Part shown: positions 5,840 to 38,152 of the stretch, in pieces
Position numbering within the stretch: position 1 is the first letter of the stretch
Layout of the letters: each line of letters opens with the position of its first letter
Assembly: GCA_002731275.1 (NCBI GenBank)
Contig: PCBK01000034.1
Coordinates: 1 to 56,062, forward strand
Origin: Deltaproteobacteria bacterium
GTDB taxonomy: Bacteria > Myxococcota_C > UBA6777
Direction of reading: 5' to 3'
DNA: 56,062 nt
Made by a program: the position numbers and the translations under genes
Notes under the pieces: generated by a model
What the model was told of the DNA's origin: nothing
The model's input: the letters and a program-made list of their open reading frames with translations, nothing else
Database searches by the model: none

Positions 5840-6061
5840 CTAAGGCTGGTTATTCTCTTGCATCAGTTGGGCGAGTTTTTTGAGCGCTTCAGTTTGTTCG
5901 CGTGTTGCGAGGATTTGCTCGGCGCTGATGAAAAACAACGCACCGATCAAGAAGAACACAAAGCTACCTGTTTGGGAGATGTCACTTTGTGCACCAAACA
6001 ACATGAATGAGCCTACAGCACAAGCGACTAAACCAATCATTCTAAATGTGTTCACTGGCAT
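5840..6061 (-). CDS. Small two-helix membrane protein
   Basis: A 73-residue protein with two hydrophobic segments: about residues 7-24 (MIGLVACAVGSFMLFGA) and 32-50 (GSFVFFLIGALFFISAEQI). A short charged tail ending in Gln/Asn follows. I do not recognise a family. AGGAG lies six bases before ATG 6061. Its start is 18 bases after the stop of the cysteine-ladder gene and its stop is 40 bases before the acyl-CoA dehydrogenase, which suggests cotranscription. Both termini are probably on the same side of the inner membrane. Nothing in the sequence indicates a catalytic role. Confidence 0.7.
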   Translation of the reverse strand: MPVNTFRMIGLVACAVGSFMLFGAQSDISQTGSFVFFLIGALFFISAEQILATREQTEALKKLAQLMQENNQP

Positions 6062-6079: not shown

Positions 6080-6505
6080 TCAGTATTCACAACGTCGTGC
6101 GCAGACTGATTCGTATACACATCGGTTGATGGGGTAACAGTATCGGCGAAAGGTGCAGCGCTTTTTGGTCGTACACTTGGGTTTGTACGTGCAATTTGTC
6201 TCACCGTATTTTTGCACACAGAGCTGTTCACGAAAACATTGTTTGTACGTATTGCAGTACTTTTTTGTGTAGCAGCGGGTGCTGTTGTAACACCTTCTGA
6301 CTTGTGAACATACACGTCTACAGTAGAGAGCTTCCTTTGGTTCTTTCGCTCTCTTTGTCGAGGGGGATGGTTTCTTCTGTTGCCTTGTTTTTGTGCGTTG
6401 CTTTGTCTTGGGTGGGGCGTCTTTTGCGTGGGCCTGCGCTCCGCCTGTTATGCAGCACAAAGTGAGGCCACCGAGCAAGGAGAGCAGATAGTTTCTCAAC
6501 AACAT
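6080..6505 (-). CDS. Secreted basic protein with a symmetric cysteine ladder
   Basis: A 141-residue protein opening with a signal peptide (MLLRNYLLSLLGGLTLCCITGG, cleavage likely after AQAHA). A Lys/Thr/Pro linker follows, then a ~80-residue C-terminal block with 14 cysteines. Spacings between successive cysteines are 3,5,5,5,5,5,8,5,5,5,5,5,3: a strict six-residue period, mirror-symmetric about the central gap. The residues between are mostly Arg, Lys, Tyr and Thr. I do not recognise the family; disulfide-stapled repeats or metal binding are both possible, and only the periodicity is seen. I chose ATG 6505 because it starts the signal peptide; an in-frame ATG 24 codons upstream would bury it. 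It is first of a likely operon with the small membrane protein. Confidence 0.78.
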   Translation of the reverse strand: MLLRNYLLSLLGGLTLCCITGGAQAHAKDAPPKTKQRTKTRQQKKPSPSTKRAKEPKEALYCRRVCSQVRRCYNSTRCYTKKYCNTYKQCFREQLCVQKYGETNCTYKPKCTTKKRCTFRRYCYPINRCVYESVCARRCEY

Positions 6506-11768: not shown

Positions 11769-14700
11769 ATGCTCGGAAAGTTTTTGGAGGCAGGTTTACA
11801 GGTTGCGCTTCAAATTCCCCAATTTAAGCTAGGGGGAGGCAAAGATGAGAACATCTTTAGACTTCTCCATGACCATTTTTACCAATCAAGTCATGCTCTT
11901 GGGCAATCCTTTCAGCGCTCCTACCACAAAAGCATGATGGTGATCGCAGCGGCTCTTGCGCCTCCAACTTTTTACAAGACAGCCTGGACGACATTTGATT
12001 CGAGGGTGACAAAAGAAGCCGATCAACTTATCCAAACGCGCTACTTTACAACTTTTTGTGAGCGCGAGGGTCTCCTTGAAGAAGTCGATAAGAAGACATT
12101 TTGTAAACAAGCGATCAAGACTTATCGACAAGCTGCAAAACGCGCTGAAGAACTCTTTCCTCTCGGACAATTCGATGAACCCAAACTTCGTGATATGCTC
12201 ACAAATACAGAGGATTCCGAGGAACTCGGAAGAATCCTCTTGTCATCTATTCAAAATGAGATCAAGGATAACACACAGTTTAAGTTTTTAGCTTATGAAG
12301 GCCTACTCTTGCAGATGGTTTTCTTCTTTTTTCAGGAGGAGCTTAGGCGAGAGCCCAAAGTGGAGGTGATGTTGAACACTCTCCAGCAATCTGGTCTCAG
12401 GAGTGATATTCGCGATGTGGAGACAGCACGGCAAGTGTCTTCAGCGGCAATCGAGTCCCAACTCGCCGAGGTGAATGATCAAATCGGAAAGCTCCAGCGA
12501 CGTCTTACGCAAGAGACGGATGCGATGTTCATCCATATGATGCAGCAACAACGTGATCTGCTACAGGCAAAACAAGAAGCCTATCAGGAAGAGCTACAAG
12601 CTCTCTCTACGCAGCTCCAACAAGCCCAGCAACAATGGGAGATGTTTGGTCAAAAGCTCGACACCTTTCGAGGGGAGTTTGGTGAGTGGTGTGGGATGGT
12701 CGCCTCGCATATCTCGGAGCTTGATGCGAAACTCGACAAGGCGCTCTTGATTCTTGAAAAGGAGATCAAAATACTTCTTGGTGAGATTGGGGGTGATGTC
12801 AAAACCCTGATCAAACAAGTGCAGGCGATGATGAACCACATGGGGTTGGGCTCGCAAGTCTCGATCCGACACGAATTCACCATTCACACCAACACCAACG
12901 TGGAGCTGATCAGGCAGGCCGCTGAACGTCTCGAGAAGACGCCAACTTCGACAAAGGAGTTCAGTCATCTGGCGATCCAAATTGGTAGCGCGCTGTCTTC
13001 AACGGGAGAGCTTGCGTGGGCCAAGAAGTATTTTGATCGTGCGTATATGAGCGCAAAAGAACACGGTGACGATAAGTACTTGGCGCTCGCTTCATACAAT
13101 CTTTTTCAGGTCGAGCTTCGACAGGGAGCCTACGAAGATGCGTTGAAGGCGCTTAAAGAGTCGATGCAACTCGATCCAGCCAACTACATGCTGTTTAATG
13201 CCGAAAAATACCATCCTTTGAAGATATTAGGTGCTGGTGGGATGGGATGTGCCTTCTTGTGTCGAGATGTTTTTCTCGACGAACTCGTTGTCATCAAGAC
13301 TTTTTGGAACCCCAAAAAAGGTTCGCTCAAAGAGGTCTTCAACGAAGCGTTTATTATGAGGAATGTCGACGTGAAAGGTGAGTTTATCCCTCGCCCCTTG
13401 CACATCGACTACGCAAACAACCAGACCAATGAGCGTCCGTATATTATTATGGAGTACATCGCGGATGCGATCGACGGCGAGGACTTCCTTGTAAAGTATG
13501 GTGCTCTGGAACTCTCCGAGGGGATTGGCCTGGGGGTGCAGGTTGCCCGTGCGCTCCATAAGGCACATCAAAAACATATCTACCACCTCGATCTCAAACC
13601 CTCTAACTTACTCTTACGTCGTGACGAAGAAGGCAAACTTCACTTCAAGATTATCGACTTTGGTTTGGCCCGCGCAGGCGTCTCCTTGCGGATGGAGGCC
13701 GCGAAGCAAAGCCATAGCGCGAGCGGTATGAGCCTCTTTTCACGTAATGTCTTCGGAACACTTGATTACTCTCCTCCTGAACAAAGAGGGATGATCGAAT
13801 ACGGAGAACCCGGTCCAAAAAGCGATATCTTTGCCTTTGGCAAGACGCTTTATCGACTTTTGAGCTTTGAACCTCCTCAACAACTGTTCCCCGATCCGCT
13901 CGAAGACAATATGCAGCTGTATCAACTCTTGCTGAGATGTGTTCGGCCACAACCTGCACAGCGTCCTGCATCAGCCGAAGAGGTCGCGAACGTGCTCGAA
14001 GAGATTTTGCACTCTTTGAAGCCTGATACGTCAAGTGTTAGGATCTCCGAACCTCTTCGGTTATTACTTGAGCAAGCGTTCGATGACAAGCTCCTCGAAG
14101 AGACTGAAGAGGACATGTTGTGGACTGTTGCTCGTGGGTTTGGTGTCGCCCTTGATGACTTTCAGCAGCTTATCGATGATTGGTTACGTGAGCACAAAGC
14201 CCGCAGACAGGTTGCGCTCAGGATCCAGGCCTGGATGTCGACGCAAACACCCCAACGCTTCCATATCCACGTTCTTTGGGGGGCTGTTAGCGAGGTATAT
14301 CCAAAAGATTACACTCTGGATGGATGTCGAAGGCTCCCGTGGCTGACACCTTCGCAAATCCTCAACGCTGATCCGAAGTTCCTAACAGATGACGAGGTAC
14401 ATTATTGGTTCTCCGAGTGGGAGCTGCCGACGATGGAGCAAAAGCAGAAAGAAGGGGAAGACAGCTCCTCTGAGTTTGTGCCGTTTATACCGGACTCTTT
14501 GACTGTTGATCGATTTGTAAAGTATATCGCGATTGAGTACGGTATTTGGGTTCAGCCACGTGACCCAGAGACTGATACGCCCGCGATACCCTCTCTTACA
14601 CTGTCTGAATGTCGGGCAAAGCTGCCCCAAGAGGGGGAGTTTAAGCCACATGGTGTCAACCGTGTCGCCAAAGTAAAGAAGTCTCTTGAAAAGTTGACAG

Positions 14701-16658
14701 GGCTTAAGCTGTGCATCCTTGATCCTGAAGGACAACCTGCTGAGGAGAATGCGAGACTCGCACAAAATTATATCACTGGAGGCAAGTGGCTCTCTGGAAT
14801 GGGCGAGATGGTTTTCTTTTGGCTCAAACCTCCACGTAAAGGAAAAGACCCTATATGGAAGAGGAATGGTTATCTTAGTTTTGGGAAGCACTTCTCTTGG
14901 CTCTTGGAGGGAGAAGATGCTCCGATCTTTATCCAGTCTTCAGAAGGGCACTTTCACGCAAAGATCTATCGATCAAAGACGCGCTTTGCGAACCTCTCCG
15001 AACTTTTTGGAGCGCATCCCACATTGGAAGCCGGGGATGTTGTTTGTTTGACACATCATGGGAACAATATTTTCACCTTTGATGTGTTTCCACAAGACGG
15101 TGAAGCAGGAACAAAGCTCGATATTCTCGATACTGTTGCCCCAGATTTCGATGTCGATTTTCCACCCATCCAAGAGGAGGTTGTTGTGGAAACGCTGGCA
15201 GATGTTTCATCAGAGGACGAGCTGGTAGTTGAAGATGAAGATGAGTCCGAAGATGAAGATGAGTCCGACGAGTCTGAAGATGACGAGGAAGAGAGTACGG
15301 AAGAGGACTTGAAAACGGTGGAGGCCGCAGAGGAGATTCACGCTGAAGCACCAGATGCGCTCGAAGGAGAGGGAGCACAAGAGCGCATGAAGGTCTCGCG
15401 TTTTGTGCGTGAGTTTGCGATTGAGCATGGTATCTGGTTCGATATGATGGACCCAGAGACTGAAGTGGTCGCTTCACCAAGTGCTTTTGTCGAAGACTTA
15501 CGTGTGCAAGAGCCTGTCCCCATGGAGTTATCTTTTCACGGTCGCAACCGAATCAAAAAGGTCCGCAATCGGATGAAGAAAGCCACTGGTTTGATGGTGC
15601 AGGTTCGCTCTGGAGACGGTCGTCTCGCGTCAGATGACGAAAAGCTCGCGATGCACCGTCTCCACGGTAATTCCTTTCTCACATTGATGGGAGAGAGTGT
15701 CTTTTTCACACTCAAACCAGCCATTGCTTCCTCAAACGGCATTCCTTCTTGGCGCAAAAATGGTGTCCTGTCTTTTGGCTCTTTGAAAGAGCGCGTTTTT
15801 CCCGAACAAGAGCCTGGACCGATTGTCGTCGAATGTGAGCATGGGTCGTTTGAAGGGGCACTCTCTCGGAAGTCGAACAGGTTGAAAGGGTTGAAGAAGT
15901 TGTTTGCCTCTTTTCCGGAGCTCGAAGTCGGCGATGTGGTGTGTGTGACCCGTGTTGACGCGGGTGTCTTCACGTTGGAGACATTCTTGCGTTCGACCGA
16001 AGAGGACGTGGAAGAGCTCGAAGAGATTGTCGAAGATGATAGCACGACAGCTGACTATGAAGTGTTTGAATCTGACGAAGAAGAGGAGACTTACGTTGGA
16101 CAAGAAGCTGTCGTGGTCCTGGAGAAGGAGGCTGGAGACGATTCATTGGCCTTACTCGTCGAGAAGGCCAAGATGTATTTGGGAGCAGGGAAGATCCAGG
16201 ATGCGCTTGCCTGTTACGAAGCGATGCATCTTTACCACAGAGATGTGGTAGATGAAGAGGCTGAGCTTTCTCGTCGTGTGGCTGCGGCGTTGTTGTATAA
16301 GCAGGGGCTTGAGTTGCTAGAGTACGCGCCAGAACAAGCGTTAAACAAATTTGAAGCTTCCTACGCGCTTGATCCCGAGTTTTTCCCCAAAGAGATTATG
16401 CGGCAGATGACGACGCTGCGCGAGGCGAAGGAGAAACAGCGAAAGGTTCGTTTTATCGGGCTTTGTCGCGAAGGGCAACACCTCTCCAAAACAGACCCTG
16501 CGCGTGCCCTTGGTAAATTTAATTTGGCGTATCGTCTTGCACCACAATTTTGGACAGAGAATCACACGAAGTGGGTACAGTATCTTCAGAAACTTGTAGC
16601 GCTTCAAAAAGAACGAGCCCAACATGACTCTGTGAGACATCTTGAGCAGCAATCTTGA
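11769..16658 (+). CDS. Giant Ser/Thr protein kinase with coiled coil, TPR-like repeats and a tandemly duplicated unknown domain
   Basis: A 1629-residue multidomain protein. Residues ~1-215 are an all-helical domain I do not recognise; ~220-305 a Gln-rich coiled coil; ~395-475 TPR-like helices (ending YEDALKALKESMQLDPAN). Residues ~480-750 are a Hanks-type kinase with glycine loop GAGGMG, lysine in VVIKTF, catalytic HLDLKPSN (Leu where HRD kinases have Arg) and DFGLA. Residues ~910-1110 and ~1207-1410 are two copies of one ~200-residue domain sharing RFV-x5-IE-x-GIW, DPET, KRNG/RKNG-LSFG and EAGDVVC/EVGDVVC patterns, joined by a linker almost entirely Asp/Glu/Ser. The last ~170 residues are TPR-like. 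No membrane segment is seen, so it is probably cytoplasmic. GGAGGTG precedes ATG 11769. It appears monocistronic; substrates are unknown. Confidence 0.88.
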   Translation: MLGKFLEAGLQVALQIPQFKLGGGKDENIFRLLHDHFYQSSHALGQSFQRSYHKSMMVIAAALAPPTFYKTAWTTFDSRVTKEADQLIQTRYFTTFCEREGLLEEVDKKTFCKQAIKTYRQAAKRAEELFPLGQFDEPKLRDMLTNTEDSEELGRILLSSIQNEIKDNTQFKFLAYEGLLLQMVFFFFQEELRREPKVEVMLNTLQQSGLRSDIRDVETARQVSSAAIESQLAEVNDQIGKLQRRLTQETDAMFIHMMQQQRDLLQAKQEAYQEELQALSTQLQQAQQQWEMFGQKLDTFRGEFGEWCGMVASHISELDAKLDKALLILEKEIKILLGEIGGDVKTLIKQVQAMMNHMGLGSQVSIRHEFTIHTNTNVELIRQAAERLEKTPTSTKEFSHLAIQIGSALSSTGELAWAKKYFDRAYMSAKEHGDDKYLALASYNLFQVELRQGAYEDALKALKESMQLDPANYMLFNAEKYHPLKILGAGGMGCAFLCRDVFLDELVVIKTFWNPKKGSLKEVFNEAFIMRNVDVKGEFIPRPLHIDYANNQTNERPYIIMEYIADAIDGEDFLVKYGALELSEGIGLGVQVARALHKAHQKHIYHLDLKPSNLLLRRDEEGKLHFKIIDFGLARAGVSLRMEAAKQSHSASGMSLFSRNVFGTLDYSPPEQRGMIEYGEPGPKSDIFAFGKTLYRLLSFEPPQQLFPDPLEDNMQLYQLLLRCVRPQPAQRPASAEEVANVLEEILHSLKPDTSSVRISEPLRLLLEQAFDDKLLEETEEDMLWTVARGFGVALDDFQQLIDDWLREHKARRQVALRIQAWMSTQTPQRFHIHVLWGAVSEVYPKDYTLDGCRRLPWLTPSQILNADPKFLTDDEVHYWFSEWELPTMEQKQKEGEDSSSEFVPFIPDSLTVDRFVKYIAIEYGIWVQPRDPETDTPAIPSLTLSECRAKLPQEGEFKPHGVNRVAKVKKSLEKLTGLKLCILDPEGQPAEENARLAQNYITGGKWLSGMGEMVFFWLKPPRKGKDPIWKRNGYLSFGKHFSWLLEGEDAPIFIQSSEGHFHAKIYRSKTRFANLSELFGAHPTLEAGDVVCLTHHGNNIFTFDVFPQDGEAGTKLDILDTVAPDFDVDFPPIQEEVVVETLADVSSEDELVVEDEDESEDEDESDESEDDEEESTEEDLKTVEAAEEIHAEAPDALEGEGAQERMKVSRFVREFAIEHGIWFDMMDPETEVVASPSAFVEDLRVQEPVPMELSFHGRNRIKKVRNRMKKATGLMVQVRSGDGRLASDDEKLAMHRLHGNSFLTLMGESVFFTLKPAIASSNGIPSWRKNGVLSFGSLKERVFPEQEPGPIVVECEHGSFEGALSRKSNRLKGLKKLFASFPELEVGDVVCVTRVDAGVFTLETFLRSTEEDVEELEEIVEDDSTTADYEVFESDEEEETYVGQEAVVVLEKEAGDDSLALLVEKAKMYLGAGKIQDALACYEAMHLYHRDVVDEEAELSRRVAAALLYKQGLELLEYAPEQALNKFEASYALDPEFFPKEIMRQMTTLREAKEKQRKVRFIGLCREGQHLSKTDPARALGKFNLAYRLAPQFWTENHTKWVQYLQKLVALQKERAQHDSVRHLEQQS

Positions 16659-35950: not shown

Positions 35951-36565
35951 CTTGGAAACTCCGTTTCGTTTGGGTGTAGAGCTTCCCTGCATCGCAATCC
36001 GCACGGGTGCATGTCTTGTTTGTGTGGTGGAGCTGGTGTGGATTGGATGGGGGAGGCTGACAAAGAGATGAGTGGGTTGTGGATCCGTGCCCTGAAAAGT
36101 CGCGCATATGTTTGGACTTTTTACTTTTTGAGATGACGGGCATGTCGACGGACGACGCGGATCATCTGGACTCACACGTATGGGGTATCAGCACATCATT
36201 CCCATCACTGAGAGTTACATGAACTCAGTGACGTTTTTCTCGACTATCAAAGTCGGAGAAACAGATGCGCGATCCATTTGTGGAGGGATAACTCATCACT
36301 CTCCCAGGCCTCCTATGTTGTTGGATCTCGACGATCCTGTTGGGTTGAGGGGGGACGCAGATCTTTACTTTGGATCTTGCGTTTGCAGTCAACATACGTG
36401 TGAAGGTGTTGTGGGGTTCATTCTTTTTCTCTCCACTGGCCTGAGGTATGGCTTGACGTTCGCTGGTCTTTTCTCTACCATCAAGGGCCATTGAACTGGA
36501 AACCAAGAGAATGAGCCGATTGAAGCGATAAAGTGGGCTTTTGAGAAAACGGAGGTGTGAAGCTG
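35951..36565. other. Intergenic region between divergent genes
   Basis: A 615-base gap between the small basic protein (left-reading) and the Arg/Tyr-repeat lipoprotein (right-reading), so it should hold both promoters. I see no supported gene. One hairpin, CACTGAG-n11-CTCAGTG at 36206-36230 followed by ACGTTTTT, looks terminator-like on the plus strand, although no plus-strand gene ends before it. Confidence 0.45.
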
Positions 36566-38152
36566 ATGGCCGCGCGTGCGAAGATGATATCCAGGATATG
36601 TTTGGTCCTTTTGTTGGGGATCGTTGTAGGTTGGGGGTGCGACAGTAAGCCCACAAAAGGCATTTTTCGACTGAAGGTCAAAGTGGCGAATATGGAGGGA
36701 CAAGGAATCGCTGACGCAAAGATCATGGTCAATGGCGAATCCGTAGGTTCGACAGATGAGACTGGTGCGTATCTCGGGAGTATCAAGGGCTCCGTGAATG
36801 CCAAGGTCAAGATCACCATCTCAAAAGGTGTTTCGAAGACGACAACCACCCAACGCCTCAAAGCCAAAAAGATCAAGGGACGTTGGCGTACTGTAGACGT
36901 TATCGTCGATACGACCATCGACGCAGCGTCCTCGGCACCTCCTGTTGCTGCTGCGGAGCCGGTCAACGTCGATGCAGGCGAACCCAAAACTGACGTTGTC
37001 GATCCTCCTGTGCGACGTCGTGTTGTTGAGCGACGTAGAGCACCTGTTTATAGAAGACGATATGTCCCAAGACGTCGATATGTCCCAAGACGTCGATATG
37101 TTCCAAGACGTCGATATGTTCCAAGAAGGCGTCGTGTGATTGTCAGACGATATGTCCCAAGACGTCGAATCGTTGTCAGAAGATTTGTCCCAAGACGTCG
37201 AAAAGTTGCGATGGTCCGTCGGATTGTCCCGCCACCAGTGAGACGGGTTATTGAGCGTCGTTTGCCACCTCCGCCACGTATCGATCGCCGACCTCCTCCT
37301 CCCCGCGTGAGCGCAAAGAAGGTGCTCAAGTTAAAGCCCAAGTGTCTTCGTCGGTATCGTCGCAGACGTTCTCGTGTTGTGTTGTTGACGGCGACTGCTG
37401 GGACGACCCTTCGTTTGAAGGGAGACCACTGTAACGTGTCGTTGGCGAAACTTCGCGCAGGGCAAGTGATTGAGATCAAGCTGCCTGTTGGGCCATTTCA
37501 TCGAATTAACGCGACAAAAGGTAGCTTGACACAGAACAAGGTCTTTCAAGTCAGCTCTGGCTCCAGACCCAAGAAAATCCACATCAGTATGGGGTCTTCT
37601 GGGTGCAATATCGCGACCATTATGAAAGATATCCAGCGCGGACGTAGCGTCTCTTCTAGCAAACTGTCTTGTCTGACCAAGATCAACTACGGTCAACCCA
37701 AACATCTCGACGCACATCTCTCCGCAGCAGGGTACTACTGCAAGAAAAAGCGATACCCACAAGGCAAGATGCTCTTGAAGAAATTGACCCGATACCCGAA
37801 GTACAAGTTCCGTCCGTACTCCGCGATGAAGCTGGGTGTCTATCTTGGGCGTTGCAAAGATTACAGAAATGCCCTGCAGATGCTGCGAAAAGTTACACGG
37901 ATGACGATGCGCTTCAGCAGCCGCGATCGCTATCGCAACACCAAGGCGCTGTATCGAGCATTGGCACAGCTTTACGAGCAGAGCTTTTACCGCACGAAAA
38001 ATGCCTTGGACCTGACCAGAGCCGTGAAAGCCCAGCAGCGACTTGTTGACATCGTTCGCTCATCAGACAGACGCGAGAAGTCTCGCGCGCGCAAAGAACT
38101 CAAGCGATACAAAAAGCTCGCGAAAGAGAAAGGTGCACTCGAAACGGAGTAG
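36566..38152 (+). CDS. Arg/Tyr-repeat lipoprotein
   Basis: A 528-residue predicted lipoprotein. The signal (CLVLLLGIVVGWGC) ends in a cysteine, although Trp at -2 makes the lipobox unusual. A carboxypeptidase-like beta domain follows (~25-105; GQGIADAKIMVNGESVGSTDETGAY). Next comes a strikingly basic repeat region (~140-240) built on RRRYVP hexapeptides, then a Pro-rich stretch, a PEGA-like beta segment (~265-330) and a TPR-like helical C-terminus (~375-528). GGAGG lies ten bases before ATG 36566; a GTG at 36557 is too close to it. The repeat lies between ordinary domains, so it may be an electrostatic tether to an acidic polymer such as LPS or DNA; this is speculation. Confidence 0.78.
   Translation: MAARAKMISRICLVLLLGIVVGWGCDSKPTKGIFRLKVKVANMEGQGIADAKIMVNGESVGSTDETGAYLGSIKGSVNAKVKITISKGVSKTTTTQRLKAKKIKGRWRTVDVIVDTTIDAASSAPPVAAAEPVNVDAGEPKTDVVDPPVRRRVVERRRAPVYRRRYVPRRRYVPRRRYVPRRRYVPRRRRVIVRRYVPRRRIVVRRFVPRRRKVAMVRRIVPPPVRRVIERRLPPPPRIDRRPPPPRVSAKKVLKLKPKCLRRYRRRRSRVVLLTATAGTTLRLKGDHCNVSLAKLRAGQVIEIKLPVGPFHRINATKGSLTQNKVFQVSSGSRPKKIHISMGSSGCNIATIMKDIQRGRSVSSSKLSCLTKINYGQPKHLDAHLSAAGYYCKKKRYPQGKMLLKKLTRYPKYKFRPYSAMKLGVYLGRCKDYRNALQMLRKVTRMTMRFSSRDRYRNTKALYRALAQLYEQSFYRTKNALDLTRAVKAQQRLVDIVRSSDRREKSRARKELKRYKKLAKEKGALETE
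37058..37129 (+). repeat. Four tandem 18-bp in-frame repeats (RYVPRR)
   Basis: Unit CGATATGTCCCAAGACGT, four head-to-tail copies with one C/T change in the third and fourth. Each codes RYVPRR within the lipoprotein. Degenerate copies continue to about 37200. Near identity suggests recent expansion by slippage or unequal exchange. Confidence 0.9.

Follow-up and report, generated by a model that had tools for sequence, protein, structure and literature searches.

A gene on the minus strand of the window (the whole 56,062-nucleotide stretch of DNA analyzed here) encodes a 141-aa secreted protein whose 14 cysteines form a mirror-symmetric ladder. On the strength of structure models this ladder very probably adopts the fold of a long β-hairpin, and we regard the ladder proteins as a new family in which a structural idea already known is greatly extended. 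The complete explanation that we favor, in which a cationic hairpin rod laced by disulfides acts as a polyanion-binding tether, has about an even chance of being correct, and our judgment of its inferred components, namely the disulfide state, the binding partner and the role as a tether, is just as finely balanced.

The gene and its cysteine ladder

The gene, its parts and its downstream neighbor are as follows:

6080..6505, minus strand: gene for the 141-aa secreted, putative disulfide-ladder protein (ORF list, homologs, purifying selection in the family)
6425..6505, minus strand: signal peptide, residues 1-27 (MLLRNYLLSLLGGLTLCCITGGAQAHA), recognized by eye from its hydrophobic core and A-x-A site
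6326..6424, minus strand: basic linker rich in Lys/Arg/Pro/Thr, residues 28-60 (33 residues), from the sequence
6218..6322, minus strand: ladder arm 1, residues 62-96, with Cys 62, 66, 72, 78, 84, 90 and 96 (cysteine positions; predicted strand)
6194..6217, minus strand: central loop VQKYGETN, residues 97-104 (8 residues), with the turn at Y100-G101 taken from AlphaFold2
6089..6193, minus strand: ladder arm 2, residues 105-139, with Cys 105, 111, 117, 123, 129, 135 and 139 (cysteine positions; predicted strand)
5840..6061, minus strand: ORF for a 73-aa small membrane protein, 18 nt downstream of the ladder gene (ORF list)

The coding region of the ladder gene (6083-6505) begins with an ATG at 6505 and ends at a stop codon at 6082-6080. 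As judged by eye, the signal peptide is cleaved between AHA and KD, and signal peptides recognized in the same way are apparent at the start of all family members, including the homologs L009 (cleavage between ASA and NT) and L002 (between AHA and SE). In both of these the basic linker is missing and the ladder directly follows the signal peptide. The ladder region of the window protein, residues 61-141, has a net charge of +16 (K+R minus D+E) and 11 tyrosines. The 73-aa downstream ORF, whose Pfam matches are all sub-threshold, is possibly co-transcribed with the ladder gene.

The 14 cysteines lie within 78 residues (62-139) at spacings of 3,5,5,5,5,5,8,5,5,5,5,5,3, a perfect palindrome in which the residue numbers of mirror partners sum to 201; the ladder described in the initial annotation is thus exact. 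If 14 cysteines are placed at random in this span with the ends fixed, the exact chance of obtaining any palindrome is 8.9e-8, and in a simulation of 400,000 such placements neither a palindrome nor an arrangement with at least ten equal spacings arose. Reordering the same spacings gives a palindrome in 6 of 858 orders (0.7%), and the core pattern of eight cysteines occurs once in the window as against none in 100 dinucleotide shuffles.

Distribution and selection

Searches of Pfam, NCBIfam, PHROGs and PDB sequences matched the ladder to no family, and the earlier statement that it could not be matched to a known family therefore holds in these libraries; plasmid and phage searches also returned nothing credible for it. 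The PDB sequence matches reflected histone-tail composition or were otherwise insignificant, and were discarded. Profile searches recovered relatives in all five genomes examined from the home phylum, and none in ~970 genomes sampled outside it (~381 domain-wide, plus 195 and 396 of two other phyla, the last two sets having no positive control within them; the same profile does match in the home phylum). For the genome-wide scan a protein profile replaced Cys-only DNA patterns, which were swamped by simple repeats (in viral_contigs and in the phylum's genomes) and by unrelated Cys-rich proteins with C-x5-C-x5-C. When 84,980 species genomes were scanned with one conserved motif as such a profile, only two MAGs, labeled 'Myxococcota bacterium', were found, and their ladders match those of the genomes G002 and G004, already known. 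The Cys-rich repeat proteins L031, L023 and L170 match the ladder profile weakly; the C-x5-C-x5-C-x4-C-x3-C units of the Cys-rich repeats common in these genomes do not occur in the ladder.

The family is conserved across three genera, and the spacing is identical to that of the window protein in L009/L010 and in L002. L009 and L010 differ at 24 of 109 codons, with 23 synonymous changes and a single nonsynonymous one, which indicates a real gene under purifying selection. This codon pattern, together with the conservation across genera, refutes a spurious ORF or low-complexity artefact and leaves that explanation next to no probability, even though period-six cysteine patterns do arise in simple repeats, both in viral_contigs and in a shadow frame at window position 37,054. 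The latter match was rejected because it lies in a shadow frame of the gene at 36557-38152 (plus strand), whose secreted product of 531 aa contains a PRRRYV repeat rich in Arg; read in that frame, the gene mimics a C-x5-C array. L003 (on C199) was not counted as independent, as C199 and C40 share 99.98% identity across 4.5 kb (L216 versus L209 in G000). The two sequences diverge within the ladder-CAP gene past the 12th cysteine, which may reflect strain variation, recombination or an assembly chimera.

Paired cysteine losses

The conservation of spacing among homologs, proposed earlier as a check, is exact in three lineages and altered in others, mostly symmetrically. L012 lacks C7 and C8 (F and N instead), L027 lacks C4 and C11 (Y and S), leaving spacings of 3,5,11,5,5,9,5,5,11,5,3 that remain a palindrome, and L016 lacks both C3 and C12 and C7 and C8. 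The chance that the losses in these three proteins are all mirror pairs is ~5e-4 (a conservative count with the shared C7/C8 loss taken once), and L226, a PLA2-type member with Ile and Val in place of the middle pair of a three-rung ladder (spacing 11,8,11), would add roughly a factor of 5, since 3 of 15 possible pairs are mirror pairs; with small counts and related members, these values are guides and not formal p-values. In L018, seven-residue (x7) segments occupy mirror positions of the two arms. The asymmetric exceptions are the outer arms of L016 (11 versus 8) and L168 (9 versus 8). An antiparallel hairpin in which Ci is bonded to C(15-i) would be expected to lose its cysteines in such pairs.

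This pattern bears directly on disulfide-rich arrangements of another topology, either small hairpins in series or a β-solenoid with intra-turn disulfides. L208 fits solely as two consecutive three-rung hairpins, the PLA2 branch also reads well in this manner, and the long-hairpin reading of L018 and L168 is ambiguous, as tandem units can be read in them too. A period of six would suit solenoid repeats as well, and there is an insignificant PDB sequence match to a thermal hysteresis protein (E 2.5). However, the C4/C11 and C3/C12 losses link distant parts of the chain, where pairing between neighboring turns predicts none, and both AlphaFold2 models are of one hairpin, making these topologies decidedly improbable for the family.

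Of the two possibilities raised in the initial annotation, the disulfide-laced rod gains support from the mirror-paired losses, the turn glycines, the two AlphaFold2 hairpins and the oxidizing export machinery. The other, a repeat-built metal binder, would correspond to a metallothionein-like protein with Cys-thiolate ligands, and 14 cysteines in 78 residues are in keeping with it. It is nevertheless very unlikely: the protein is secreted by organisms whose genomes encode VKOR/DsbA oxidants, the strongly cationic ladder has no CxC or CxxC (the spacings being 3, 5 and 8 only), and metal binding predicts neither losses as mirror pairs nor a one-faced β register.

Turn, register and predicted fold

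Nine of the ten central 8-residue loops have a glycine at position 4 or 5, the exception being TRKFRRKI, the first loop of L225. Where the loop has 9 or 21 residues, the glycine is exactly the third residue of a three-residue turn (IFG, KDG, SDG), and the same register is kept. In antiparallel sheets, disulfides between strands favor non-hydrogen-bonded pairs. If the turn at the mirror center comprises two residues, all seven cysteine pairs fall at such positions and on one face (in steps of 6 and 4).

This mirror pairing was stated before the structure predictions came back. AlphaFold2 modeled the window protein (three aligned sequences) as one long hairpin with strands 3-41/44-82 and pLDDT 88.2, and a homolog (single sequence) likewise as one long hairpin with strands 2-41/44-83 and pLDDT 85.6; the respective pTM of 0.37 and 0.31 may be expected to be low for a twisted ribbon, yet limits certainty. 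The turn at model Y42-G43 gives the register i+j=85, which corresponds to every mirror cysteine pair. One of five models in the run with aligned sequences and three of five in the single-sequence run fell below 50 pLDDT. The best matches from Foldseek and VIA-align were generic long hairpins, those of pore-toxin stems and of phage tails, with low Z (best VIA-align Z 4.2, rmsd 9.4 over 83 residues); among the matches listed no solved multi-disulfide long hairpin was recognized, although this does not prove that none exists. Stem hairpins such as those of the β-pore toxins lysenin, protective antigen and CDTb thus resemble the predicted ladder at the level of shape only, as long β-hairpins, but they are parts of large oligomeric proteins. 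We know of no disulfide ladder in them.

Domain architectures and functional inference

The ladder stands alone in the window protein, in L009/L010 and in L208 (as two consecutive short ladders); the window protein has no Pfam match, and so neither a CAP nor a PLA2 domain. It is followed by a CAP domain (PF00188) in L002 (E 5e-19), L016 (3e-15) and, weakly, L012 (0.006). Animal CRISPs also join a Cys-rich domain to CAP. L002 resembles these in its pairing of the two, but its Cys-rich part is an N-terminal 14-cysteine ladder and not the C-terminal domain of CRISPs, and the window gene is without CAP. In L018, L168, L161, L225 and L226 a PLA2-like domain precedes the ladder; the Pfam PLA2 matches of these fusions are weak (best 3e-5), and the YGxWCG and CxxHD motifs are visible in most. 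These are secreted proteins with a very basic ladder tail, of net charge +26 to +38 in three of the five, and L018 additionally matches phrog_11353 (function unknown). Further architectures include a three-rung ladder with an AgmX/PglI C-terminal domain (L177) and a ladder with a coiled-coil/repeat tail (L027).

No conserved gene neighborhood was seen around the ladder genes, so the reading of function rests on charge and fusions. The mature window protein would consist of the basic linker and a single antiparallel β-hairpin of ~39 residues per strand, ~13 nm in length (39 x 3.3 Å). Its seven cross-strand disulfides would join Ci to C(15-i) (62-139, 66-135, 72-129, 78-123, 84-117, 90-111 and 96-105), with all rungs on the same face and spaced two or three non-hydrogen-bonded pairs apart. 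Oxidation after export by the VKOR/DsbA of the cell would then yield a rigid, protease-resistant, strongly cationic rod rich in Tyr and Arg, occurring alone, as in the window gene, or joined to secreted CAP, PLA2-like and AgmX/PglI-C domains. We propose that such a rod serves as a durable polyanion-binding tether by which secreted proteins would be retained at LPS, exopolysaccharide, membranes or extracellular DNA.

The nearest rival takes the same ladder hairpin to be a passive mechanical element, that is, a stiff projection or spacer, or a unit from which a cross-linked extracellular matrix or surface layer is built, with no specific binding to polyanions. Its fusion to several unrelated domains (CAP, PLA2-like, AgmX/PglI-C and the coiled-coil/repeat tail of L027) and the predicted rod shape would agree with this, and the many tyrosines could cross-link. 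However, the members counted are all strongly basic, with net charges (+12 to +38) beyond what a spacer would require, and the adjoining N and C ends of a hairpin could not simply separate domains joined there. With its two ends side by side, the rod would stick out from the attached domains rather than separate them, which favors binding or anchoring over a spacer. We consider a passive role rather unlikely on these grounds.

Oxidizing machinery

Each of the genomes encodes VKOR and contains 14-25 matches to DSBA domains. In each of the five genomes VKOR is fused to DSBA-type domains (e.g. L221:887-2293, G000:C13; G002:C113:8976-10580). A further observation concerns ORFs, here termed poly-DsbA, each of which alone contains four to eight DSBA (PF01323) domains at regular intervals:

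L220:1745-6850 (G003:C54): poly-DsbA ORF
L219:713-4993 (G002:C128): poly-DsbA ORF
L217:693-4196 (G000:C36): poly-DsbA ORF
L218:1219-3735 (G000:C1): poly-DsbA ORF

Their CPFC/CPYC motifs lie ~180-215 residues apart, with eight motifs within one 1701-aa frame, and most have an N-terminal membrane anchor. A literature search found no description of such proteins.

Relationship to known disulfide ladders

Like tachyplesin, protegrin and capitellacin, the ladder would be a cationic hairpin rich in Arg and aromatic residues with laddered disulfides, which in its case are predicted; its C-x3-C ends with Arg and aromatics are similar to tachyplesin-type hairpins. This likeness raises the possibility of a giant analog of β-hairpin antimicrobial peptides that harms the membranes of competitors or prey, alone or with its fused PLA2-like or CAP partner. 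Laddered disulfides and LPS binding are known in that class (PMC7761999, PMC13001179), and the fused PLA2-like domains retain the CxxHD motif. The known peptides are, however, short and membrane-active with one to four disulfides (PMC13001179, PMC7761999), and the ladder, with ~80 residues and seven potential disulfides, lies outside their size. Analysis of its faces shows no hydrophobic one, and no immunity gene or neighborhood was found; an antimicrobial role is accordingly improbable.

As described in PMC6327110 (citing Conibear 2012) and PMC13001179, θ-defensins are cationic and consist of two antiparallel strands with parallel cross-strand disulfides. The ladder may share this plan, as suggested by its predicted hairpin and mirror-pair losses. 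However, θ-defensins are 18-residue, end-to-end cyclic primate peptides with three rungs, whereas the window ladder would have seven rungs over 78 residues of a linear 141-aa bacterial ORF, with paralogs fused to domains and no sequence relation shown. The cystine-ladder-like motif of algal HAP2 is likewise a ladder-like module with three parallel disulfides, but it has EGF-like connectivity and an inserted 37-residue loop, and is eukaryotic. No longer natural disulfide ladder was found in the open-access literature.

Returning to the tether, we suggest tentatively, at somewhat less than an even chance, that the ladder constitutes a new lineage-specific extracellular domain, namely an extensible hairpin whose length is set by the simultaneous gain or loss of cysteine pairs in the two strands (3, 6 or 7 rungs), which one phylum employs as a modular cationic rod and matures with poly-DsbA proteins containing as many as eight tandem catalytic domains. 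Should the pairing be correct, it would be a natural disulfide-laced β-ribbon having over twice as many rungs as the textbook cystine ladder, with an architecture that can be read and extended from cysteine spacing alone. It would then also provide a scaffold that is cationic, stiff and resistant to proteases as it stands, allow the evolution of paired cysteines to be tested cleanly, and link a secretome rich in disulfides to the unusual tandem DsbA proteins of a barely studied phylum.

Elsewhere in the window (11769-16658, plus strand), a 1629-aa protein combines an apparent Ser/Thr protein kinase core with coiled coils and, toward the C terminus, a pair of repeated segments around acidic stretches.
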